From an uncultured Fidelibacterota bacterium (lineage in GTDB: Bacteria > Marinisomatota > Marinisomatia > Marinisomatales > TCS55): a DNA stretch of 9,434 bases. The notes below the pieces were generated by a model. That model made no database searches, was not told the DNA's origin, and saw only the letters and a list, made by a program, of their open reading frames with translations. Below are positions 1-9,434 of this stretch, in pieces (within the stretch, counting starts at the first letter, position 1; each line of letters begins with the position of its first letter). The stretch covers positions 1-9,434 of the forward strand of contig CAJWTA010000040.1 in the NCBI GenBank assembly GCA_913046805.1. The letters are read 5' to 3'. A program made the position numbers and the translations under genes.

Positions 1-1013
1 CTGTATTTTAAGATGAGTTCATTTAATGAGCTTTTTAGTTTTTCAATTGTTAGGTTAAGCCCTGAAAGCTCATCAAGATCTGTCTTGATTTTCTCAACAT
101 GATCGATAACCGACTCAATTGATCCTCCATATTTTCGCTTTAAACTTTCAATCGATTGAAGCCTATCATTTACTTCGCTAAGTTTTGATGGATCGCTTTC
201 AATTTGATCAAGGTACTCGACCAACCCAGAAGAGGATTCCTGAATTGACATGGAAGATTGCTTCAAAGCATCTAAAAAATTTGAGAGTTTTTTGTCATAC
301 TTTGAAAGACCCTCCAATTCATCTATCGCTGAATACAGCTGTTTGTAAATTGAATGATCGTGTTCAGTGAGACTTTGATTAAGTTTTTGAATTGCATTAA
401 TGGTTTCTTCGGAATTATTCAAACGCTTGAATTCAGCTGTTAATTCTTCATCCTCATTGAGCTTTGGGCTAATTAATTGAATCTCATTTAATTGAAACTC
501 AAGGAAATCTTTTTTATCATTTGATTGTTTAGACAATTCAAGCTTTTTTGCTAGATCTTCTTTTGTAAAGATTAGCTCATTGTATATTTTTTCAATAGCA
601 CTGAGTTTGTTTTCATTTTTACAAAAACGATCCAAAAAATCTATGTGCGTACGACTGTTCATGATTAGCTGTTGCTCGTTCTGTCCGTGAAAATCAGCAA
701 AGCTATAAACTAGCTCTCGATACGATTCTTCCGATAAAGGCTCTTCATCAACATAGGATTTTATCCTTCCGCCTTTAGAGAGCAATCTACGGTAATTCTT
801 CTGATTGCTAAGACTGACCTCAACAACTGATCGCTCTTGACCGCTTCTTACATCTGTTTTTTCTGCCTTTGATCCTAGTGCGAGTGACAGTGCTTTCACT
901 ATTAGGGACTTACCAGCACCCGTTTCACCAGTAATAACTGTAAATCCATCAAAAAAAGGAAGATCTAACTCTCGAACAATAGCGTAGTCTTTTATATAGA
1001 TTTTATTTATCAT
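1..1013 (-). CDS. recN: DNA repair protein RecN, N-terminal 337 residues (runs off the left edge)
   Basis: RecN is an SMC-like ATPase of the cytoplasm that acts in recombinational repair of double-strand breaks. I translated the frame by hand from the ATG at 1013 to base 3 and found no stop, so the C-terminal part (Walker B, signature motif) lies outside the window. Full-length RecN is about 550 residues. Visible motifs are the N-terminal ATPase opening (MINKIYIKDYAIV), Walker A GETGAGKS at residues 29-36, the RecN-typical DFHGQNEQQ at 107-115, LNNSEE at 198-203 in the coiled-coil arm, and LKRKYGG at 291-297. Residues from about 135 are rich in Lys, Glu and Leu, as expected for a coiled coil. 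The start overlaps the end of the VanZ-like gene by 11 bases and has no good Shine-Dalgarno sequence, which points to translation coupled to the upstream gene. The family call is secure. Confidence 0.95.
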   Translation of the reverse strand, partial: MINKIYIKDYAIVRELDLPFFDGFTVITGETGAGKSLIVKALSLALGSKAEKTDVRSGQERSVVEVSLSNQKNYRRLLSKGGRIKSYVDEEPLSEESYRELVYSFADFHGQNEQQLIMNSRTHIDFLDRFCKNENKLSAIEKIYNELIFTKEDLAKKLELSKQSNDKKDFLEFQLNEIQLISPKLNEDEELTAEFKRLNNSEETINAIQKLNQSLTEHDHSIYKQLYSAIDELEGLSKYDKKLSNFLDALKQSSMSIQESSSGLVEYLDQIESDPSKLSEVNDRLQSIESLKRKYGGSIESVIDHVEKIKTDLDELSGLNLTIEKLKSSLNELILKY

Positions 1014-1353
1014 TGCTTACGGTATAAACTAAAATTAAACCAACAGCAAAACCAAGCGTATCGCTTAAGACATCCAAGCCGCTTGAAAACCTGCCAGATA
1101 TAAATGATTGTAGGTATTCATCCATCAATCCAAATAAAAGACCAGCTGGAATTAAAGCTAGCACCGTTTTTTTCGAAACTTTTGGCATACTTTTAATAGC
1201 TAACATTCCAAATATAAAATATTCAAAAAAATGAATTACCTTATCGTACTGAAGTAGCCAAGATTTAGGAAGTTCGCTGCTAGGTGTAGATGAAAGCATT
1301 AATATTAATAACGCATATAATGCAAATAAGACTCTGTAAAATTTATAATTCAT
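1003..1353 (-). CDS. VanZ-like family membrane protein
   Basis: This is a 116-residue integral membrane protein of the VanZ-like family. Hydrophobic segments lie at about residues 4-21, 39-54, 63-77 and 97-112, giving four likely membrane spans. The family motifs are present: DKVIHFFEY at 37-45 and, after the third span, DEYLQSF at 78-84 followed by GRFSSGLDVLSDTLG at 87-101. The founding member, VanZ, raises teicoplanin resistance in enterococci, but most members, including short single-domain ones like this, have no established function, so I do not infer resistance. The gene overlaps nnr upstream and recN downstream by 11 bases each. The only Shine-Dalgarno-like bases are a poorly placed AGGA well upstream, so translation is probably coupled to nnr. 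Confidence 0.87.
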   Translation of the reverse strand: MNYKFYRVLFALYALLILMLSSTPSSELPKSWLLQYDKVIHFFEYFIFGMLAIKSMPKVSKKTVLALIPAGLLFGLMDEYLQSFISGRFSSGLDVLSDTLGFAVGLILVYTVSNDK

Positions 1354-2866
1354 ACCCAGAAAGTATTTTTCCTATTTCTATTAACAGGTCGCTCGCAATA
1401 AGACCTCTTTGACTAATATTATTTGATTGATTATCTGCTGCAAGTCCATGAATAAATGTACTTACAATTGATGATTCAAGTGAATTATATCCTTGTGATA
1501 TAAGCGAAGCAATAACACCACTCAACACATCTCCTGTCCCCGCTGTCGCAAGGCCCGGGTTTCCAGTTGAATTAATATATCCATTAATCCCATCGGATAT
1601 AATTGTAGAATCATTTTTTGCAACTAAAACACCAGGCATGTTTGTGGTCATCTTTTCAAAAATATTAATCATGTCCATCTTAAACTCTTCCGCATCTATT
1701 TCGAACAACTTGCTAAGCTCTCCAATGTGAGGGGTAAATACAAAGTCATTTTTTATTTTTTTAAGCAATGAAAAATCATTGTAAAATGGACTAAACCCAT
1801 CCGCATCAACTACCATAGGCTTATCAATCTCAAGATAAAGATTGTGCAATAATCTCACAGTATCCTTATTTCTTCCAAGTCCGGGCCCAATCAAAACCGA
1901 ATCAGCCCAATCGATATTGTCCATTATCTGATTATAATTGTCATTTGTAAAAAATCCCGAACCTCTATCCTCGCATGACACAGTCATCCCTTCTGTAATT
2001 TTGCGTTCGTAGACAATATTTAGTGATTTTGGGGCAAATGTTTTCGTTAATCCGCAACCAGATCGCAATGCACCCATCGTTGCAAGATAGGCTGCGCCTG
2101 TCATACCCTCTGAACCAGCTAATATCAAAACCTTACCCTGTTTGTACTTGTGGGTATTTTTTTTAAGAGGTTGTAAAATATTTCTAATTAGATCATCTGT
2201 TATAACATTCCATTTTTGGCCATTCAACTCGTTGATTTTATTCGGAAATCCGATATCAACCGATCTGATGGTACCACTATAACTTTTACCAGGCTCTAAA
2301 AGAGATCCTATTTTTGGGTAGCCCATTGCAATGGTATAATCTGCACTCACTGCTTTTGTGCATACTGTACCGCTATCGCTACATACCCCAGTTGGAATAT
2401 CGCAAGAAATAACTACAGAAAATCTATTTATCCACGTGGCCCAGTTTTTTAGGTTCTCGTAAAGCTCACCCTTAAAACCTATGCCTAGCATTGAATCTAT
2501 TGCCAAACTATTGAAATCGTAGACAGATGGAGGATCAGAGTCAAAAATAACAGAAATATTTTCTTTCAAGCATTCTTTGTAATAATATGATGTTTCATTC
2601 GAAAAATATTGGGCACTATATATTGAGAAAACGGCAATGCTGAAACCGCACTTATTTAAATAAACTGCAGCAGCAAAACCATCTCCTCCGTTATTTCCTT
2701 TTCCTACTACAATACTAATAGATTTTATATCACTAAAATTGCTATTGATAAAATCTGCAATTTTTTTGCCAGCTTCGCCCATAAGTTTTTGACCACTTAT
2801 ACCATTCGTTTTTAGAGCTAATCTATCGAGATCATAAGCCTGATTTTTCATCAAGACAGTACTCAT
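1343..2866 (-). CDS. nnr: Bifunctional NAD(P)H-hydrate epimerase / ADP-dependent NAD(P)H-hydrate dehydratase
   Basis: This 507-residue enzyme repairs NADHX and NADPHX, the hydrated and inactive forms of the reduced cofactors. The N-terminal YjeF_N domain (about 1-215) epimerises the R and S hydrates. It shows LMGEAG at 28-33, the nucleotide-binding GKGNNGGDG at 55-63, AIDSMLGIG at 122-130 with the conserved Asp124, and CDIPTG at 155-160. The C-terminal ribokinase-like domain (about 235-507) dehydrates the S form using ADP. It shows VLILAGS at 246-252, IGPGLGR at 326-332, DADG at 354-357, TPHIGELSKLF at 378-388, and GNPGLATAGTGDVLSG at 435-450 with the predicted catalytic Asp446. Domain order and length match the usual bacterial fusion. 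The ATG overlaps the acpS stop as ATGA, and no Shine-Dalgarno sequence is visible, so coupling to acpS is likely. Proximity of acpS and nnr is common in bacteria. Confidence 0.96.
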   Translation of the reverse strand: MSTVLMKNQAYDLDRLALKTNGISGQKLMGEAGKKIADFINSNFSDIKSISIVVGKGNNGGDGFAAAVYLNKCGFSIAVFSIYSAQYFSNETSYYYKECLKENISVIFDSDPPSVYDFNSLAIDSMLGIGFKGELYENLKNWATWINRFSVVISCDIPTGVCSDSGTVCTKAVSADYTIAMGYPKIGSLLEPGKSYSGTIRSVDIGFPNKINELNGQKWNVITDDLIRNILQPLKKNTHKYKQGKVLILAGSEGMTGAAYLATMGALRSGCGLTKTFAPKSLNIVYERKITEGMTVSCEDRGSGFFTNDNYNQIMDNIDWADSVLIGPGLGRNKDTVRLLHNLYLEIDKPMVVDADGFSPFYNDFSLLKKIKNDFVFTPHIGELSKLFEIDAEEFKMDMINIFEKMTTNMPGVLVAKNDSTIISDGINGYINSTGNPGLATAGTGDVLSGVIASLISQGYNSLESSIVSTFIHGLAADNQSNNISQRGLIASDLLIEIGKILSGYEL

Positions 2867-3225
2867 AGGAACATCAATGCCATCGCTATTGCAAAATCTT
2901 TTTCGTGCGAAATTGAAATCTGAATATCTTTTATATTGAAATCTTTTATCTTTGAAACAAACGGTGCGCCATTACTACGAGATAAAATCTCAATCTCGTT
3001 AAATCCAATCGAAGCGGTGATTTCGCTCGAATATAGGCATTTTTTAATAGATTCTTTTGCGGCAAATCGTCCTGCAAAATGAACAGACGGAATATCTTTT
3101 GAAAAACAATATTCAGATTCATTTAAGGTAAAAACTTTTTTTATGAATTTATCTTTTTGCTTTTCAAGCAGTTTCTGGATACGCTCAATTTGAACGATAT
3201 CCGTTCCAATGAAGAATTTAGACGT
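2863..3225 (-). CDS. acpS: Holo-[acyl-carrier-protein] synthase with apparent ACG start codon
   Basis: AcpS transfers 4'-phosphopantetheine from CoA to a serine of acyl carrier protein, activating it for fatty acid synthesis. The frame encodes 120 residues, the usual family size. IGTDIVQIERI starts at residue 6, HFAGRFAAKES spans 49-59, IEI at 78-80 is followed by G86-A-P88, and SISHEKDFAIAMAL closes the protein. The Mg/CoA-binding Asp9 and Glu58 fall at the same numbers as in E. coli AcpS when counted from an ACG codon at 3225. The frame has no ATG, GTG or TTG before the last few codons, and an in-frame TAA lies at 3229-3231. The ACG sits 8 bases after AAAGGA. An ATT at 3210 is the only other non-canonical option and lacks a Shine-Dalgarno sequence. 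The gene overlaps the HAD gene by 8 bases upstream and nnr by 4 downstream. A base-call error turning ATG into ACG is possible. The product is nearly certain; the start is inferred. Confidence 0.93.
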   Translation of the reverse strand, partial: TSKFFIGTDIVQIERIQKLLEKQKDKFIKKVFTLNESEYCFSKDIPSVHFAGRFAAKESIKKCLYSSEITASIGFNEIEILSRSNGAPFVSKIKDFNIKDIQISISHEKDFAIAMALMFL

Positions 3226-3901
3226 TGTTTAATTCCTTTATTATACCAACCACTTCATGGATATCGTTAACATCCCAATCGGCTCCCGATTCTTTGGTTC
3301 CAAATGTATCGCCATACCTAGCAAAAATAGTTTTCATACCTATCTGCTTTGCACCCACAACATCGCGATCGGGCCAATCACCTATCATTAAAGCCTCATC
3401 TGGCCCAACATTCATTTTTTCTAGTGCTAACTTGAATGGTTTGGGGGAAGGTTTTCGAGCGCCCGTATCATCGAAAGTAAGCACGGGATCGAAAACATGA
3501 TGTAAATTTAAATAATACAAACGCATCCAGGCTTCCCTACTCGGAGCATCAGAAACAACAGCAAGACGGATTTGTGTTTTTAACAGCTCAATTAGGGTTT
3601 TGTTGACATTTGGATAAACGAGCAAGGTGGCCTCACGAGCTCTGCGATAGGCTACAACGCCTGCGGCCAAAATCTTATTACTTACCTCACCAGTAGTCTG
3701 TTTAAGATAATCATCAAAGACTAACTGATTTTCCCAGCCTGTGGTCATATACAGCTCCATTACATCTTTATAGCCACTTTCTTCATCAACATTAAGTCCA
3801 GCCTCATTCATTGCTCTAATCGAGGCTTTAACAGCAAACTGCTTCATTTTGACAAAGTCCAATAAGGTATTGTCTAGATCAAAAATTATTGCTTTAATCA
3901 T
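3218..3901 (-). CDS. HAD-superfamily hydrolase, subfamily IA (phosphatase of unknown substrate)
   Basis: This 227-residue cytoplasmic protein is a probable small-molecule phosphatase. All four HAD motifs are readable. Motif I is FDLDNT at 7-12, with nucleophile Asp8 and acid/base Asp10. Motif II is VVSDA at 115-119, with Ser117. Motif III is the Lys at 150 in ARKPSPKPF. Motif IV is MIGDWPDRDVVGAKQIGM at 172-189, with Asp175 and Asp180. Residues 15-95 form a helical cap typical of subfamily IA. The opening MIKAIIFDLDNTLLD and the motif IV wording recall the archaeal/bacterial TIGR02253 (CTE7) group, whose substrates are unassigned as far as I know. The gene starts 18 bases after the TPR gene stop without a clear Shine-Dalgarno sequence, and its 3' end holds the acpS ribosome-binding site. 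The substrate cannot be read from sequence; nucleotide or sugar phosphates are typical for the family. Confidence 0.87.
   Translation of the reverse strand: MIKAIIFDLDNTLLDFVKMKQFAVKASIRAMNEAGLNVDEESGYKDVMELYMTTGWENQLVFDDYLKQTTGEVSNKILAAGVVAYRRAREATLLVYPNVNKTLIELLKTQIRLAVVSDAPSREAWMRLYYLNLHHVFDPVLTFDDTGARKPSPKPFKLALEKMNVGPDEALMIGDWPDRDVVGAKQIGMKTIFARYGDTFGTKESGADWDVNDIHEVVGIIKELNNV
3234..3239 (-). promoter_or_regulatory. Shine-Dalgarno site deciding the acpS start
   Basis: The minus strand reads AAAGGA here, followed by 8 bases (ATTAAACA) and then the ACG codon at 3225. The site lies within the last codons of the HAD gene. It is among the better ribosome-binding sites in the window, and its spacing is ideal for ACG at 3225 but too long (23 bases) for the ATT at 3210. 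It is the main evidence for where acpS translation begins. Confidence 0.7.
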
Positions 3902-3919
3902 AAAGGTTTAAGCGGGGTA

Positions 3920-5227
3920 CTATTCAACGTATTTTTGAGGATTTTTAATTTTGTCAATCTCATATTCGGCCATCTTCCTCCAAGATCTGTCGTTCCTAGC
4001 TTTTTCAAATGCGTTCAATGCCCCAGCTTTATTACCAGAACCATTGCACCATTCAGCTGTCCCAAGCTCAAACCATGCACCCCCAAACCTATTTTTTAAT
4101 TCCGTACTTTTTCTAGCAGCGTCCAATGCAGATTTACAATCGCCATTCATGTTGTGCGCTCCAGACAAGCGAAAATAACTCATTGCATCTCGTTCATTCA
4201 AAGCTACGGCCATTTCAAGGCTAGCTATAGCCTGATTCCATTCTTTTTCTTCTGAAAAAATAACACCCAGGTTTGCATAGCCTTTTGAATAGTTGGGATT
4301 TACTGTTGTAGCCATTTTCAAAGTTTGCTTGGCTTTGTCGTAGTCTTTTTGTTGAATGTAGATGTCACCCATTGCGCCATATGCTTTATCGTAGCTTGGG
4401 TTGATATCGATAGCAGATTGCAATGCAGTTAAGGCGCCATCTGTATCATTCGTAGAATTTTTTGCTAAACCAAGCGCAAAGTACGCTTTGTAAAATTGAG
4501 GATTGATTTCTATAGATTTTTCATAGGATTGAACCGCTTTGTCTTTGTCGCCCATTTTTGACTGAATAACGCCAACTTGAAAGTGTGCCTGATAAAAGGT
4601 TTTGTCTACATTTAATACCTCATCATACGATGATAAAGCGCCTTCCAAATCTCCTCTTTTATACAGCTGATTTCCTTTATTAAAAAAGTTTTTAGCGACG
4701 TTCTTAATTGCCGTAAGTGCGTTCTTGTGATCTGGATTTATTTCAATAGTTTTGTTGAAATAGTTAACCGCCTCCGTAAAATCTTTATTTCTAAAATGCG
4801 TTAATCCCATGTTAAAAACAGACTCGGGATACTGTGGAAATTTTTCATACGCGATCCTAAAAGATTCGAAAGCGTTATCTATGTCGCCATTTTTCATAGA
4901 TCTAATACCCTTTCCCATTAGGGTGTTTAGCTCGCTGAGACGTTCAAATTCTTGGCGAAACTCTTTGTTTTCAGGGTCTGCTTCAATAGCTTCTTTAAGA
5001 TAAGTGTTTGATTGCCTTAGATCTCCCTTTCGCATTGCAACAATTGCTAGTCCTGCGTATGCTGGTGCAAAAGATGGGTCCATGTCAACTGCGCTTTTAT
5101 ATTCATTTTCTGCTTTTAAAAGATCTCCAGAATCCAGATTAGCTTTTGCAGAATTGTATAACTCGTCTGGGGATTGAGCAAAAACGATACCCATTAAAAT
5201 AACTGAAGCTGTTAATAAATTTCTCAT
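3920..5227 (-). CDS. Exported tetratricopeptide-repeat (TPR) protein
   Basis: This is a 435-residue protein built almost wholly of TPR units. Residues 1-17 form a signal peptide (Arg2, a hydrophobic core LLTASVILMGIV, then FA before Gln18), with likely signal peptidase I cleavage after Ala17. There is no lipobox Cys, so a soluble periplasmic location is more likely than a lipoprotein. About 11 repeats of roughly 34 residues follow from residue 19 to about 425. Most end in the classic pattern of Ala at position 20 and a closing NPxx or DPxx, for example EINPDH, EINPQF, DINPSY and TVNPNY. The last unit is irregular and contains Cys and Trp (WCNGSGNK). TPR arrays are protein-binding scaffolds; the partner is unknown. 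AAGGA lies about 11 bases before the ATG. The tRNA-Leu gene ends 36 bases upstream, so one transcript could carry both. I do not recognise a named family beyond TPR. Confidence 0.88.
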   Translation of the reverse strand: MRNLLTASVILMGIVFAQSPDELYNSAKANLDSGDLLKAENEYKSAVDMDPSFAPAYAGLAIVAMRKGDLRQSNTYLKEAIEADPENKEFRQEFERLSELNTLMGKGIRSMKNGDIDNAFESFRIAYEKFPQYPESVFNMGLTHFRNKDFTEAVNYFNKTIEINPDHKNALTAIKNVAKNFFNKGNQLYKRGDLEGALSSYDEVLNVDKTFYQAHFQVGVIQSKMGDKDKAVQSYEKSIEINPQFYKAYFALGLAKNSTNDTDGALTALQSAIDINPSYDKAYGAMGDIYIQQKDYDKAKQTLKMATTVNPNYSKGYANLGVIFSEEKEWNQAIASLEMAVALNERDAMSYFRLSGAHNMNGDCKSALDAARKSTELKNRFGGAWFELGTAEWCNGSGNKAGALNAFEKARNDRSWRKMAEYEIDKIKNPQKYVE

Positions 5228-5263
5228 ACGTAATTATTTCCTTATTCTTAAATAAATATTTTG

Positions 5264-5347
5264 TGCCGAAGGCCGGACTCGAACCGGCACGAGGTTTCCC
5301 CCACTGCCCCCTCAAGACAGCGTGTCTACCAGTTCCACCACTTCGGC
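5264..5347 (-). tRNA. tRNA-Leu (anticodon GAG)
   Basis: The minus strand folds as a type II tRNA. The acceptor arms are GCCGAAG at 5341-5347 and CTTCGGC at 5265-5271, a perfect 7-bp stem, with discriminator A at 5264. The anticodon stem is CTGTC/GGCAG (one G-U pair) around the 7-base loop TTGAGGG, which places GAG at 5311-5313, reading the Leu codons CUC and CUU. A long variable arm follows, as expected for leucine. The T arm is GCCGG-TTCGAGT-CCGGC, and the D arm contains the usual GG-TAGACAC region. The 3' CCA is not encoded: after the discriminator come C, A, A, so it must be added by nucleotidyltransferase. The gene lies 69 bases after the sulfotransferase-like gene and 36 before the TPR gene, all on the same strand. 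Confidence 0.97.
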
Positions 5348-5416
5348 TTGTTAAAATTTACATACATTAAAAACTTTATATCTACAGAACTTTATCTGGG
5401 TTAAAATAAAAGTACT

Positions 5417-6142
5417 TTAATGAACTTTGATGCTGCGTGAATTCAATATCTCATAATCAATCATACAGCGGTAGTAAATATCTTCCCATTTTGCATCCAA
5501 TACAATGTTTTTATCGGAGTACGGCTGAAAACCTGTGGTTTTTTCCACTTCGCTATACCAATGAGGAGCCCAAACTCCATCAGTATCCCTTTTACCGGCT
5601 GGCCAATAAAGCATTCTTTCATCAAAGTCTATCTGCATAATTCTACATATTTCACTTAAAATCTTTTGGGGGTTCATCAATACATCTTTAGCGTTGATAA
5701 CAATCGGAAAATCTCCGGTTGTATCTGCTACAAAATTCATAATTTGAACTTGTTGATTGTAGCCAAGCTGCATATGGTCCACTAGATCAAACCGTTTTTG
5801 ATAGCTTATGATAACCTCTTTCGGATCTCGTATTAGAAAAAGATTTGTAACATGCTTTGTCCAACTTAAATCAGAATGTGTAAAAATATGGTGTGCCATG
5901 TGTTTTTGATACCACACTTTTTTCTGTTTTGGTATTTCACCGATAAGCATACTTGAAACGGTATTCCAGTCCGAAGACTGGTTATTTAAAATTTCTTTGC
6001 GAGCAGGGTGATTCTCACCGCTCTCAGTTAAAAAATATGCATAATAAGGCTCATCGGTTACGTATGTATCGGATCGATTCTCAAATGAGCGCATCAAAGC
6101 TGTTGAAATGTTGCGAGGTCCAGACCACATTGCTATTTTCAT
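5417..6142 (-). CDS. Sulfotransferase-like P-loop protein paired with the aminotransferase
   Basis: This is a 241-residue protein of the sulfotransferase superfamily fold, probably cytoplasmic, since no signal peptide or membrane span is visible. The N-terminal phosphosulfate-binding region reads WSGPRNISTALMRSF at 6-20, followed by EPYYAYF at 31-37. A KH pair at 80-81 lies where classical enzymes have the catalytic KTH region. LIRDPKEVIISY at 103-114 supplies the Arg105 and Ser113 expected to bind the 3' phosphate of PAPS. DGVWAPHWY at 188-196 is a further strong motif. The 5' loop lacks the usual Ser-Gly (PRSGST type) and has Asn-Ile instead, so true PAPS use is unproven. The start is 3 bases after the aminotransferase stop, with GGGGGA before it. 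The same two domains occur fused in a plant protein family. The fold is fairly certain; the acceptor and reaction are unknown. Confidence 0.8.
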   Translation of the reverse strand: MKIAMWSGPRNISTALMRSFENRSDTYVTDEPYYAYFLTESGENHPARKEILNNQSSDWNTVSSMLIGEIPKQKKVWYQKHMAHHIFTHSDLSWTKHVTNLFLIRDPKEVIISYQKRFDLVDHMQLGYNQQVQIMNFVADTTGDFPIVINAKDVLMNPQKILSEICRIMQIDFDERMLYWPAGKRDTDGVWAPHWYSEVEKTTGFQPYSDKNIVLDAKWEDIYYRCMIDYEILNSRSIKVH

Positions 6143-6145
6143 TAC

Positions 6146-7042
6146 TTATCCCCCAATGTGTTTTTTGTAAAATGATTGAAGGGTGTGGGTTAATTCTCCC
6201 CTGTTGCCATTATTTATCAAAATACCATCAACGCTTGTAACAGGAATAATGCCTGCAAATGTACCGGTGACAAAAACTTCATCGGCGTTATGCACATCTT
6301 CGATTTTAAAATTTTTTTCATAAACTGGTATATTGTTTTCCTTACACAAATCAATTACTGTTGATCGAGTGATGCCATGCAAACAATACTCTCCAGTTGA
6401 GGTCCATACTTCATTGGAACGTATAATAAAAAAGTTGGTGGAATTGCAGGTAGACACAAACCCGCTTGGATCTAACATCAATCCTTCGTCGGCCCCTTTT
6501 TTATCGGCCTCAATACATGCGGCAATACAATTATGCTTACTCAAAGAATTAATGTTTGGGTTCTGCACGCGATGATCCCTTATAGTGTCAACTTGAGCAA
6601 GCCTTATACCTTTTTCAGTAACCGATTTATCGGCAACCTTATATTCCGGAATTATTACTACTGTTGGATTACCTACAGATGCATTAGGGTGTTGGTATGG
6701 TGTTTTTTTAAGACCTCGAGACACAATAAAGCGAATATGAACATTTGATTCCATGTTATTAATATTGATGGTATCCATTATAGCTTTTTCAATTTCATCT
6801 TTGGATAAATGGATATCTAGAGCAAGTGAACGAGCCCCAAAAAAGAGTCTATCTATATGCTTTTCAAAGTGAAGTAGCTTGCCATTGTTTAATCGTATGC
6901 CTTCCCAAACACCGTCACCTAAAAGGAACCCGCTATCAAGAACTGAAATTTTGGCATCACTTCGATGAAAAAAATTTCCATTAATAAAAATTTTAATATC
7001 TTTATTTCTTGGGTCATCGTAGTAATCGTGTGTAGTAGGCAT
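6146..7042 (-). CDS. Class IV (fold-type IV) PLP aminotransferase, branched-chain/D-amino-acid type
   Basis: This 298-residue cytoplasmic PLP enzyme should move an amino group between an amino acid and a 2-oxoacid. Visible family features are SGFLLGDGVWEGIR at 37-50, HIDRLFFGARSL at 62-73, VHIRFIVSRG at 101-110, the PLP Schiff-base lysine Lys169 in NSLSKHN, and the late binding loops HGITRS at 222-227 and FVTGTFAGIIPV at 257-268. At GFVSTCNSTNFF (194-205), Thr198 occupies the place of the Glu that binds the pyridine nitrogen in IlvE (GYISEGAGEN) and D-amino-acid transaminase. This departs from IlvE, so I do not assign ilvE. It lies 20 bases after secG with AGG before the ATG, and 3 bases before the sulfotransferase-like gene, so they are surely cotranscribed. 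The substrate is unknown; the family call is secure. Confidence 0.9.
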   Translation of the reverse strand: MPTTHDYYDDPRNKDIKIFINGNFFHRSDAKISVLDSGFLLGDGVWEGIRLNNGKLLHFEKHIDRLFFGARSLALDIHLSKDEIEKAIMDTININNMESNVHIRFIVSRGLKKTPYQHPNASVGNPTVVIIPEYKVADKSVTEKGIRLAQVDTIRDHRVQNPNINSLSKHNCIAACIEADKKGADEGLMLDPSGFVSTCNSTNFFIIRSNEVWTSTGEYCLHGITRSTVIDLCKENNIPVYEKNFKIEDVHNADEVFVTGTFAGIIPVTSVDGILINNGNRGELTHTLQSFYKKHIGG

Positions 7043-7062
7043 AAAAATAACCTGATGTAAAA

Positions 7063-7410
7063 CTAATCTTTAACTTTTTCTTCCTGAAGAGGAACGGTTG
7101 GTAAAGACAAGTTTTCAGTGTTTGGCGCTAAAGATCCATCTTGCTGAGCATCTTCAACGACCGACCCAGAAGAGCCTGAACCTGGCGAAGAAATCAGGCT
7201 AATAAGCAAAGCTAGACCCATAAATATTCCTGCTAAATAAGTAGTTAGCTTGCTTAGAGCGTTTCCAGCGCTTCTCCCGCCAAAAATAGCGTTTGTGGTT
7301 TGACCACCGGAAAGTCCGGATAAACCACCCCCCTGACTTGCCTGCATTAAAACAACGACAATCAGTAGAAGGCTAATTATTGCATGTAGGGTTATTAAAA
7401 AACCAATCAT
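7063..7410 (-). CDS. secG: Preprotein translocase subunit SecG
   Basis: SecG is the small inner-membrane subunit of the SecYEG channel that helps SecA-driven protein export. The 115-residue product has the standard layout of two membrane spans, at about residues 3-22 and 55-75. The conserved cytoplasmic link between them carries the signature LMQASQGGGLSG at 21-32 and IFGGRSAGNALSKLT at 42-56. The C-terminal tail (about 76-115) is Ser/Gly-rich then acidic, and is low-complexity as is common in SecG. The gene follows tpiA by 18 bases, and GAGAGG lies 5 bases before the ATG. A tpiA-secG order is frequent in bacteria. Confidence 0.96.
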   Translation of the reverse strand: MIGFLITLHAIISLLLIVVVLMQASQGGGLSGLSGGQTTNAIFGGRSAGNALSKLTTYLAGIFMGLALLISLISSPGSGSSGSVVEDAQQDGSLAPNTENLSLPTVPLQEEKVKD

Positions 7411-7428
7411 AAATACCTCTCAATATTT

Positions 7429-8160
7429 TTAAGTTATATTTTTAATTATCTGACAAAAATTCTCGGAGTTCAGGCTAGCCCCTCCAACCAAAAATCCATC
7501 TACATTTTTAATTTCAAAGAGCTCTGCAGCATTCGCAGCGTTGACAGAACCACCATATAAAATTTGAGGTAGAGTCTCAAAAAATTCATTCAGGATTTCA
7601 TTGATAAAACGATGGGTTTTATCAACCTGGTTTGGGGTTGCAGATTTTCCAGTTCCAATAGCCCAAACTGGCTCGTACGCTACAATTAAATCTGAATTGC
7701 GATCGACATCGTTAAAGGCGGAAGCTAGTTGTTTTTTTAAGACTTCTAAGGTTTCTCCAGACTCTCTCTCTTCGAGCGTTTCTCCAATACATACTATTGG
7801 AGTTAGATTTTCAGCGATAGCATTATGAATCTTTCTATTCACCAGATGGTCGGTTTCCATGAAGTACTGTCTTCTTTCTGAGTGTCCGATAATTGCGTAA
7901 TCTACACCAAGCGGCTTAATCATATGAGCGGATATCTCACCTGTATAGGCACCGCTTTGTTCGTGATGAATATTTTGCACACCAACTTTATATCCAGTAT
8001 TGAGTAATTTATCACTAATCGATTTTAATGCTGTTGATGGTGGAAAAAAAATAATCTGTGATATTTCTGGAGATGAATCCTTTAGGATATTATCAATAAG
8101 AACCAAACCTTCATTAATGGTCATATTCATTTTCCAATTAGCTGCTATGATAGGATTCAC
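7429..8160 (-). CDS. tpiA: Triosephosphate isomerase
   Basis: TpiA interconverts dihydroxyacetone phosphate and glyceraldehyde 3-phosphate in glycolysis and gluconeogenesis. From the chosen GTG the product is 243 residues and opens MNPIIAANWKMN, with Lys10. The catalytic His93 lies in IIGHSERR, and the catalytic Glu163 in AYEPVWAIGTGKSATPNQ, which covers flexible loop 6. The phosphate-binding loops YGGSVNAANAAEL and VGGASL follow, so all active-site residues are present. I prefer GTG at 8160 over an in-frame TTG at 8181: GGAGG ends 9 bases before the GTG, the resulting N-terminus matches the family, and the TTG would add seven unconserved residues overlapping the end of pgk. With this start the gap after the pgk stop is 4 bases, so the genes should be cotranscribed and coupled. 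Confidence 0.97.
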   Translation of the reverse strand: MNPIIAANWKMNMTINEGLVLIDNILKDSSPEISQIIFFPPSTALKSISDKLLNTGYKVGVQNIHHEQSGAYTGEISAHMIKPLGVDYAIIGHSERRQYFMETDHLVNRKIHNAIAENLTPIVCIGETLEERESGETLEVLKKQLASAFNDVDRNSDLIVAYEPVWAIGTGKSATPNQVDKTHRFINEILNEFFETLPQILYGGSVNAANAAELFEIKNVDGFLVGGASLNSENFCQIIKNIT

Positions 8161-8164
8161 TTTG

Positions 8165-9349
8165 TTAAACCTCCAAGGCAAAAATTGCCGGTAAATTTTT
8201 TCCCGATAGAAGCTCTATGGATGCGCCTCCACCAGTGGATAAATGCGTCATTTTGTTATCTAGATTAAATTTTCGCAATGCAGATGCTGTATCTCCGCCC
8301 CCCATAATACTTATTAAACCCTTTTCAGTGCAAGAGACTATCTGACTCGCTATTTCTTTCGTTCCTTTATCAAAAAAACTAGATTCAAAAACGCCCATGG
8401 GCCCATTCCATACAACCGTTTTCGAATCAACAATATGCTTTGAAAAAGATTCAATTGTTTTAGGTCCAATATCTAGCCCCATTTCATCAAAAGGTATCTC
8501 TGTTATATCGTAGGTGTTATGTTTGGAACCATTTTCTATTGATTTCGAACAAACAACATCCTTAGGCAAGAACAAATTCTTTTTGGATTTTGCTTTATTA
8601 ATCAGTTTGCTTGCTGCTGAAATTTTAGATTGATCTACTATCGATTCACCAACATCGATACCACGAGCCTTGAGCAAGGTAAAAGCCATTCCACCACCAA
8701 TTAAGATTTTATCAGCTATACCAATATAATAGTCGATCAAATTGATTTTGGTATCAATTTTAGCGCCGCCTAAAATCAGGGTCAGGGGGCGTGCAGGTTT
8801 TGACAAGGATTTTGATAAAAAATTCAATTCATTCTCAATTAAAAATCCAATACCTTTCCTAGAAAAATGTTTTGCAACTCCTACATTGGATGCATGTGAT
8901 CTGTGCGCAGTACCGAAAGCATCATTGATAAAAATATCACCATGCTTAGCAAGCTTAGCGCTAAAATCATTATCGTTCTCAATTTCCTCCGAATGAAATC
9001 TTAGGTTTTCAAGCATATGTATTTCTCCAGGCTTGAGGCCGAGCGTCACATCGTGCGCATCTTCAGAAATACAATTGCTAGAAAACTTTATAGGCATTTC
9101 TAGGAAATCTGCAAGCGTCTCTCCTACTGGCATTAAACTTAGACTAATGTCTTTTTTACCTCTCGGTCTTCCTAAGTGGGACGAAATAACTAGTTTCGCA
9201 CCCGCCTCTAAGCAATATTTGATTGTTGGCAGTGTTTGCTTTATTCGAAAATCATCTGCAACTTTTTCATTTTCAATAGGCACATTATAGTCCACCCGCA
9301 GAAGAACTGTTTTATTTTTTAAATCAAAAGTTTTTAAAGTTTTTATCAT
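8165..9349 (-). CDS. pgk: Phosphoglycerate kinase
   Basis: Pgk makes ATP and 3-phosphoglycerate from 1,3-bisphosphoglycerate in glycolysis. The product is 394 residues, the usual size, and complete. Key parts are LLRVDYNVP at 16-24, SSHLGRPRG at 56-64 in the substrate-binding basic patch, DAFGTAHRSHAS at 143-154, LGGAKIDTKI at 193-202, the nucleotide-site NGPMGVFE at 315-322, GGGDTAS at 350-356 and STGGGAS at 371-377. The start is taken as ATG at 9349 (MIKTLKTFDLKNK), which fits the family. A TTG two codons upstream is in frame but adds nothing. No good Shine-Dalgarno sequence precedes the ATG; the nearest AGGA is roughly 25 bases away. tpiA follows after 4 bases. Pgk is the first gene of this run within the window; whether gap or another gene precedes it cannot be seen. 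Confidence 0.97.
   Translation of the reverse strand: MIKTLKTFDLKNKTVLLRVDYNVPIENEKVADDFRIKQTLPTIKYCLEAGAKLVISSHLGRPRGKKDISLSLMPVGETLADFLEMPIKFSSNCISEDAHDVTLGLKPGEIHMLENLRFHSEEIENDNDFSAKLAKHGDIFINDAFGTAHRSHASNVGVAKHFSRKGIGFLIENELNFLSKSLSKPARPLTLILGGAKIDTKINLIDYYIGIADKILIGGGMAFTLLKARGIDVGESIVDQSKISAASKLINKAKSKKNLFLPKDVVCSKSIENGSKHNTYDITEIPFDEMGLDIGPKTIESFSKHIVDSKTVVWNGPMGVFESSFFDKGTKEIASQIVSCTEKGLISIMGGGDTASALRKFNLDNKMTHLSTGGGASIELLSGKNLPAIFALEV
8170..8175 (-). promoter_or_regulatory. Shine-Dalgarno site deciding the tpiA start
   Basis: The minus strand reads TGGAGG here, inside the last codons of pgk. It lies 9 bases before the GTG at 8160. It falls downstream of the alternative TTG at 8181, so it can serve only the GTG. 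This supports the shorter tpiA product. Confidence 0.75.
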
Positions 9350-9434
9350 TTGCAATATGCTTGATATTGGCTATCCTAATCAAAAATAATTTCATATACG
9401 GATAACTCATAATTTACACATAAATATGTACATC
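9350..9434. other. Gene-free AT-rich stretch upstream of pgk, cut by the window edge
   Basis: These 85 bases precede pgk on its strand. The three minus-strand frames each meet a stop (TAA, TAG or TGA) within the stretch, so no long coding tail enters from the right. It probably holds the pgk leader or promoter, but I find no convincing pair of -35 and -10 boxes: TAGGAT near 9370-9376 is a possible -10 without a matching -35. No hairpin or riboswitch is evident. Confidence 0.4.

Follow-up and report, generated by a model that had tools for sequence, protein, structure and literature searches.

The DNA analysed here is a 9,434-nucleotide stretch (henceforth the window) from an uncultured Fidelibacterota bacterium (assembly GCA_913046805.1, contig CAJWTA010000040.1, positions 1 to 9,434), whose close protein relatives with an organism name come from Candidatus Marinimicrobia, Neomarinimicrobiota or Fidelibacterota. 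Two genes on its minus strand are the subject of this work: one encodes a class IV aminotransferase-like protein (AT) and the other, 3 bases behind it and with GGGGGA located just ahead of its start, a predicted sulfotransferase (ST). A first-pass annotation had described them as a transaminase and a sulfotransferase-like enzyme, adjacent in bacteria and fused in reversed order in plants. Both genes are real, and the motifs quoted for ST, PRNISTALMRSF and DGVWAPHWY, are present; the part of the proposal that is not supported is the transaminase.

With 158.7 bits against the Pfam model Aminotran_4 (cut-off 28.5), AT belongs to the class IV (fold type IV) proteins. Every NCBIfam model for branched-chain or D-amino-acid transaminases scored it below cut-off, the best being the branched-chain model PRK08320 (254.5 against 363), with ilvE_I at 210.4 against 245.55. 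We aligned AT with the archaeal branched-chain aminotransferases (BCATs) 5cm0, 5e25 and 5mqz, which resemble it in fold and phosphate cup (185–195 bits) but have their own lysine and glutamate. Asn165 of AT stands at their lysine (PNINS versus PNIKS) and Thr198 at the glutamate of their SEGS motif. The lysine that forms the Schiff base with pyridoxal 5'-phosphate (PLP) and, in this branch of the family, the ring-nitrogen glutamate are thus both missing; the phosphate cup of class IV PLP transaminases is kept (Arg65, Thr225 and Thr261, which we take to have their usual cup roles in AT). These positions were followed in the 80 loci nearest to the query, i.e. the best 80 of 578 confirmed in a genome scan (Table 1), in all of which Lys169 is also conserved. 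The scan patterns left out the Asn165 site, and AT loci fetched later without these patterns had Asn165 in every AT scored; their Thr198 region differed among subtypes (ATCNST, NTTNAC, SSCNAT, ASCNST), and Lys169 was replaced by arginine in two of them. For ordinary relatives, 30 of the 46 class IV places in 15 genomes were pulled, of which 29 loci yielded sequence: 10 belonged to the lysine-less family (9 Asn, 1 His), and among the 19 non-family loci all 18 with data at the column had the lysine. No member of the lysine-less family that was scored has it.

Table 1. Features of the AT-ST locus and nearby genes. Positions are those of the window; residue numbers refer to the encoded protein.
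Feature	Position	Strand	Remarks
AT, Lys-less class IV aminotransferase-like protein, Asn type	6146..7042	-	298 aa; Aminotran_4
ST, predicted Sulfotransfer_5 sulfotransferase	5417..6142	-	241 aa
AT Asn165 codon, Schiff-base lysine position of ordinary class IV enzymes	6548..6550	-	alignment; Asn in 80/80 loci
AT Thr198-Cys-Asn-Ser201 codons, in place of ordinary E-G-S region	6440..6451	-	T198, C199, N200, S201 in 80/80 loci
AT Arg65 codon, phosphate cup (presumed)	6848..6850	-	80/80 loci
AT Thr225 codon, G-I-T-R phosphate cup (presumed)	6368..6370	-	80/80 loci
AT Thr261 codon, T-G-T phosphate cup (presumed)	6260..6262	-	80/80 loci; Ser in L133 and L147
ST PRNIST (P9-T14) codons, 5'-phosphosulfate-binding loop (presumed)	6101..6118	-	P9, R10, S13 invariant, 48-sequence alignment
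ST R105-S113 codons, 3'-phosphate-binding motif (presumed)	5804..5830	-	R105, S113 invariant, 48 sequences
ST DGVWAPHWY motif codons	5555..5581	-	D188, G189, W191, W195, Y196 invariant, 48 sequences
secG	7063..7410	-	ends 20 bases before AT; tpiA and pgk further upstream, same direction
tRNA-Leu (GAG)	5263..5347	-	between ST and TPR gene
HAD hydrolase	3218..3901	-	171.3 bits against TIGR02253, barely above its cut-off of 169.75

Ordinary ping-pong transamination needs a lysine that holds PLP, so it is not expected of AT and, judged from its sequence, AT is not a normal aminotransferase. That an ordinary transaminase supplies substrate to the sulfotransferase, as the first-pass annotation had it, would fit the class IV fold and the score to PRK08320, but given the missing lysine and the sub-threshold scores to all transaminase models we regard it as very improbable. 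Since the cup and the pocket are kept and the AT gene is apparently under purifying selection, complete loss of binding is not expected, and AT probably still binds something.

The best match to AT in the PDB (281.5 bits) is 7z79, an 'aminotransferase-like protein' from Variovorax paradoxus that shares the asparagine in the lysine's place and falls inside the Asn clade described below; unlike the window AT, it groups with a subclade found without ST. Its N174K mutant is also available (9j32). No description of the function of the 7z79 protein was found in the literature searched, nor any recognisable paper on the AT-ST pair or its function, and a passage search of PMC9309667 gave no mention of sulfotransferase, BCAT-like or fusion.

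The assignment of ST comes from several sides. It scores 178.7 bits against Pfam Sulfotransfer_5 (PF19798; cut-off 23.2) over residues 1–236 of 241, the top 19 Foldseek matches are all sulfotransferases, and so are all 50 listed rows of its VIA alignment. Besides the fold, it has the 5' loop (P9-T14) and the 3'-phosphate motif (R105-S113) of sulfotransferases dependent on 3'-phosphoadenosine 5'-phosphosulfate (PAPS), motifs which we assume to bind PAPS here as well. From fold and motifs we infer that ST is a PAPS-dependent sulfotransferase. Adenylate and shikimate kinases do appear further down the fold list, and the alternative would be a kinase or another nucleotide-binding protein that shares the P-loop fold. 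Sulfotransferases, however, fill the top of both lists, the two PAPS motifs have invariant key residues, and one cyanobacterial plasmid carries a distant member of the family close to an annotated cysC, so that this alternative too has very little to recommend it. The plasmid in question is from Dolichospermum (L187, 5989–7917), and the gene names in that cluster look like saxitoxin synthesis. The nearest solved relatives of ST, both by sequence and in the VIA alignment, are the CurM and olefin-synthase domains 4gbm and 4gox, which presumably activate a hydroxyl for elimination; unlike ST, they are parts of polyketide or olefin synthases, and the identity is only 17–18%.

The lysine-less proteins form a family of their own. 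In an AT tree of 59 rows, which omits four long-branched ordinary rows, all 44 lysine-less sequences fell in one clade (support 100/97) set apart from the 15 lysine-bearing ones; in an earlier 60-row tree that included those four, the ordinary group was still one side of a branch (97/94). Of the archaeal BCATs, 5cm0 and 5mqz lie outside the lysine-less clade. Within it there is an Asn branch and a His branch, each with 100/99 support, and the His form has the motif KIHHNN and retains the ring glutamate (AETNAT). Histidine in place of the PLP lysine also occurs in the ColD-type pyridoxamine 5'-phosphate (PMP) enzymes, which differ in being of fold type I and acting on a sugar.

A search with a padded fused query gave 326 matches, of which the best 120 were examined. 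Single-chain proteins with both ST and AT occur in green algae (Chlorella, Volvox, Chlamydomonas and others), the fungus Hyaloraphidium, the land plant Rumex and bacteria (one named, Phycisphaerae). Among these 120, 82 had the order ST-AT, 28 AT-ST and 10 AT alone, and the lysine column, scorable in 119, held Asn in 101, His in 18 and Lys in none; the ST-AT order comprised all 18 His proteins and 64 Asn proteins. The long proteins in AT-ST order may be gene run-ons, so we take the evidence for fusion from the ST-AT order only. Both domains are homologous to the window pair in the land-plant protein P0274 and the algal P0246, so the N-terminal half of this plant protein is related to ST. The plant and algal proteins filed as 'branched-chain-amino-acid aminotransferase-like' combine in one chain the two families of the window pair, with an AT that likewise lacks the lysine. 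The evidence from land plants is one sequence, whose gene model is unusual (937 residues, with its halves repeated); the Arabidopsis proteins At3g05190 and At5g27410, named as such fusions in the first-pass annotation, were absent from the best 120 of the 326 matches. A scan of 9 of the 120 long homologues revealed no convincing extra domain, and the PNPOx domain of P0335 was seen in that single protein, where neighbouring genes have possibly been run together.

The AT of Rumex is of the His type, as against the Asn type of the window, whereas the green-algal fusions are ST-AT with Asn-type AT domains, as were the algal ones placed in the tree. In the ST tree, where 11 of 46 inner branches were unresolved, the algal and fungal ST domains nevertheless join that of Rumex (100/100) despite AT domains from different branches. 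Likewise, L147, from the Marinimicrobia set of genomes treated below, has an Asn-type AT whose ST partner was placed among the partners of His-type ATs. Taken together, this suggests that Asn- and His-type ATs can be swapped as partners of ST. One ST-AT fusion whose AT domain was later replaced appears as possible as two separate fusions; the latter, which we had considered, is not proven, the ST tree allowing both equally. As for the reversed order in plants, the ST-AT arrangement itself was recovered, but it need not stem from fusion: the Rumex protein is of the His branch, where the one unfused pair seen (L148) likewise has ST ahead of AT, as opposed to AT ahead of ST in each of the 72 paired loci of the Asn branch.

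In prokaryotes the two genes are regular neighbours, as the first-pass annotation had anticipated; neither of the two outcomes that it had named as refuting it, an unrelated plant N-terminal half or bacterial genes that are rarely neighbours, was observed. In 72 of the 80 loci AT is followed on its own strand by ST, at no more than about 110 bases in 69 of these 72 and within 0.9 kb in all. Among 249 Pseudomonadota genomes, ST was found in 24 and AT (E <= 1e-60) in 27, 24 having both (Fisher p = 1.8e-30, uncorrected for kinship; none of the three samples given here is independent of it). Eighteen of these 24 pairs are adjacent, with gaps of 9–175 bases and the order AT then ST in 17 (the exception is G054), and six are unlinked or on separate contigs. 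Of the 120 genomes of the Marinimicrobia set (the phylum of G010), 22 had ST and 20 had AT, each of these 20 having ST as well; 19 pairs are adjacent and one (G309) is split across two contig ends. Of the two remaining ST genomes, G348 has a His-type AT immediately after ST, and both genes are interrupted in G372. Of 116 genomes from the phylum of G006 (the genome of L026, a marine group III archaeon), 8 had ST, with AT at all 8 ST loci. That the two are paired or fused in bacteria, archaea, green algae and plants suggests a small-molecule pathway in which both take part.

Some observations on these genomes stand by themselves. A small Marinimicrobia-set genome (L142, 7400–9120) has both AT and ST interrupted, by joint decay or sequencing error. 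Where the two genes are unlinked, some ATs have ABC transporters nearby and 5 of 20 stretches have an msrA-like gene (named by eye) close to ST, both being weak leads; in G105 a class I/II aminotransferase-like gene (by eye) lies directly behind an unlinked lysine-less AT (L122, 3837–5933). Four small Marinimicrobia-set genomes have APS-kinase-like genes in the vicinity of the pair, amid genes of polysaccharide type (by eye), and we regard their presence there as probably incidental. Carriage of the pair by viruses was considered and dropped, none of 82 pattern matches being confirmed, and so was Chloroflexota as a separate pair-bearing phylum: L058, a metagenome-assembled genome (MAG) named Anaerolineae, was placed with the Pseudomonadota, a search of its phylum having given the same genomes. 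Its AT groups with one alphaproteobacterial AT, and it is possibly misnamed.

Hints to the ligand come from ATs that occur without ST. One Asn-type subclade, with which 7z79 groups, was found without ST, and in all 14 loci examined (3 genomic, 11 plasmid) AT has amino-acid ABC transporter genes for neighbours, with no ST in the stretch. Several of these loci are near-copies, including three Paracoccus plasmids and G210 and G691, which are 95% identical. Other neighbours are a ClC channel gene (6 loci by tblastn, 1 more by annotation), proC, present in those 6 tblastn loci, and MmgE/PrpD in 5. Paracoccus and Thioclava plasmids thus carry an operon of amino-acid ABC importer, lysine-less AT, ClC channel and proC without ST (L190, 2954–9536), and an Agrobacterium plasmid and G227 have the importer, AT and ClC operon with proC upstream, also without ST. 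Seven plasmid ATs of the NTTNAC subtype had no ST within their stretches either; an ABC transporter is upstream in three and divergent in one, one has a TRAP transporter and one a TRAP solute-binding gene, and the AT of Ruegeria has nothing directly adjacent, with branched-chain amino-acid ABC genes about 3 kb off (the plasmid matches numbered 20, and two D. shibae copies, H20 and H21, were left out). The company of amino-acid importers suggests that the ligand of AT is amino-acid-like.

Two clusters carry sulfatases. The Mameliella cluster (L206, 14023–20858) has a choline-sulfatase-family gene (591.6 bits, cut-off 433.45) that overlaps AT at its end, followed by DapA-family, D-amino-acid-dehydrogenase-like and aldehyde dehydrogenase genes and a proline-racemase-family protein whose nearest NCBIfam model, under cut-off, is trans-3-hydroxyproline dehydratase. 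Yoonia has a choline-sulfatase-family gene about 4 kb from AT, a 37-codon stretch resembling the Mameliella sulfatase directly behind AT, and a pyrroline-2-carboxylate-reductase-like gene (below cut-off) ahead of it. We read these two clusters as a link to sulfate on the breakdown side as well, and the Mameliella cluster provides a lead, from a single case, to a hydroxyproline-like substrate.

The explanation that we favour, although with somewhat less than even confidence, is that AT and ST form a two-component system that uses PAPS to sulfonate a hydroxylated compound resembling an amino acid. ST would put sulfate on the hydroxyl of this small molecule, using PAPS. In its pocket AT would hold a compound of amino-acid type, probably accompanied by non-covalent PLP or PMP or as an adduct of these, and AT would present, bind or further convert the same compound that ST modifies, by a chemistry that does without the Schiff-base lysine.

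A related but rather unlikely possibility is that the sulfate ester made by ST serves as a leaving group, with AT carrying out an elimination or exchange by means of non-covalent PLP or PMP, somewhat as in ColD. The His branch, with its retained ring glutamate and histidine replacing lysine, would be suited to this, the solved relatives of ST are presumed hydroxyl activators, and imine-reductase genes (proC and the pyrroline-2-carboxylate-reductase-like gene) recur near ST-free ATs. Asparagine, however, cannot serve as a base, the nearby Lys169 is arginine in some ATs, the glutamate is lost in the Asn branch, and the imine-reductase neighbours come from loci that lack ST. The broader idea is of an undescribed pathway, common to marine bacteria, archaea, green algae and land plants, that would sulfonate a hydroxylated amino acid and then convert it with a lysine-less fold-type-IV enzyme using PLP or PMP, sulfate being the leaving group and the Asn and His versions interchangeable; we judge it just as doubtful. 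Still less probable is that AT is a catalytically dead regulator or scaffold serving to activate or stabilise ST. The missing lysine, the near-obligate co-occurrence, the fusions and the apparent exchange of Asn- and His-type ATs on the same ST lineage would all suit such a partner, but the pocket residues are invariant in the 80 loci and a pure activator of ST leaves the ST-free ATs beside amino-acid importers unexplained.

Several results weigh against the sulfonation system that we favour. Eight of the 80 loci have AT without a neighbouring ST (L002, L004, L016, L021, L022, L054, L060, L065). The L002 contig stops 354 bases past AT, the L065 genome has ST elsewhere, and that of L016 has only a weak ST-family match (2.2e-15), about 21 kb off if the contig coordinates agree; in the other six genomes, that of L002 included, no ST was detected. 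The three Pseudomonadota genomes with AT and no ST (G210, G227, G249), together with a whole subclade seen without it, indicate that AT can work without ST. Clustering of the neighbours in the 80 loci gave no third gene conserved beside the pair across lineages, the candidates being housekeeping genes and lineage synteny, e.g. pyruvate-dehydrogenase genes (by eye) in Sphingomonadales-type loci. With regard to PAPS supply, APS kinase was found, at a loose cut-off, in 206 of 225 ST-free Pseudomonadota, so that this sample is uninformative, and among 48 ST genomes six had none and four had weak, partial matches only. The model of a fused protein (pLDDT 89.8, pTM 0.61) does not resolve the arrangement of its domains. 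Finally, our explanation is built on families, motifs and context, and its substrate, reaction and complex are all putative.

The following genes lie on the minus strand of the window: pgk, tpiA, secG, AT, ST, tRNA-Leu, a tetratricopeptide repeat (TPR) gene, a HAD hydrolase, NnrD-like and VanZ-like genes and recN (pgk, tpiA, recN and NnrD named by eye). Given the short distance from secG, itself behind tpiA and pgk, the pair may be part of a longer transcript. The order from recN to pgk (window 3–9355) is retained entire in L001, a Neomarinimicrobiota MAG, and none of these neighbours of the pair was seen in any other of the 90 loci compared. Identity to L001 is 89% for the HAD hydrolase, 86% for the TPR protein and 85% for SecG, and 52–74% for the remaining genes.

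The family of each half was already known, as was a crystal structure of a lysine-less member. What we take as new is that the whole clade of AT partners, including the plant and algal fusions seen, lacks the lysine, together with its Asn and His versions, which appear to have been exchanged, and its near-obligate pairing with ST. Many proteins that carry the label 'branched-chain aminotransferase' or 'aminotransferase class IV', plant and algal fusions among them, look incapable of ordinary aminotransfer. PLP enzymology gains a natural lysine-less family of fold type IV for study, and a lysine-less clade with a near-obligate sulfotransferase partner offers a missing metabolic step that is testable in Arabidopsis, Chlamydomonas and culturable bacteria.
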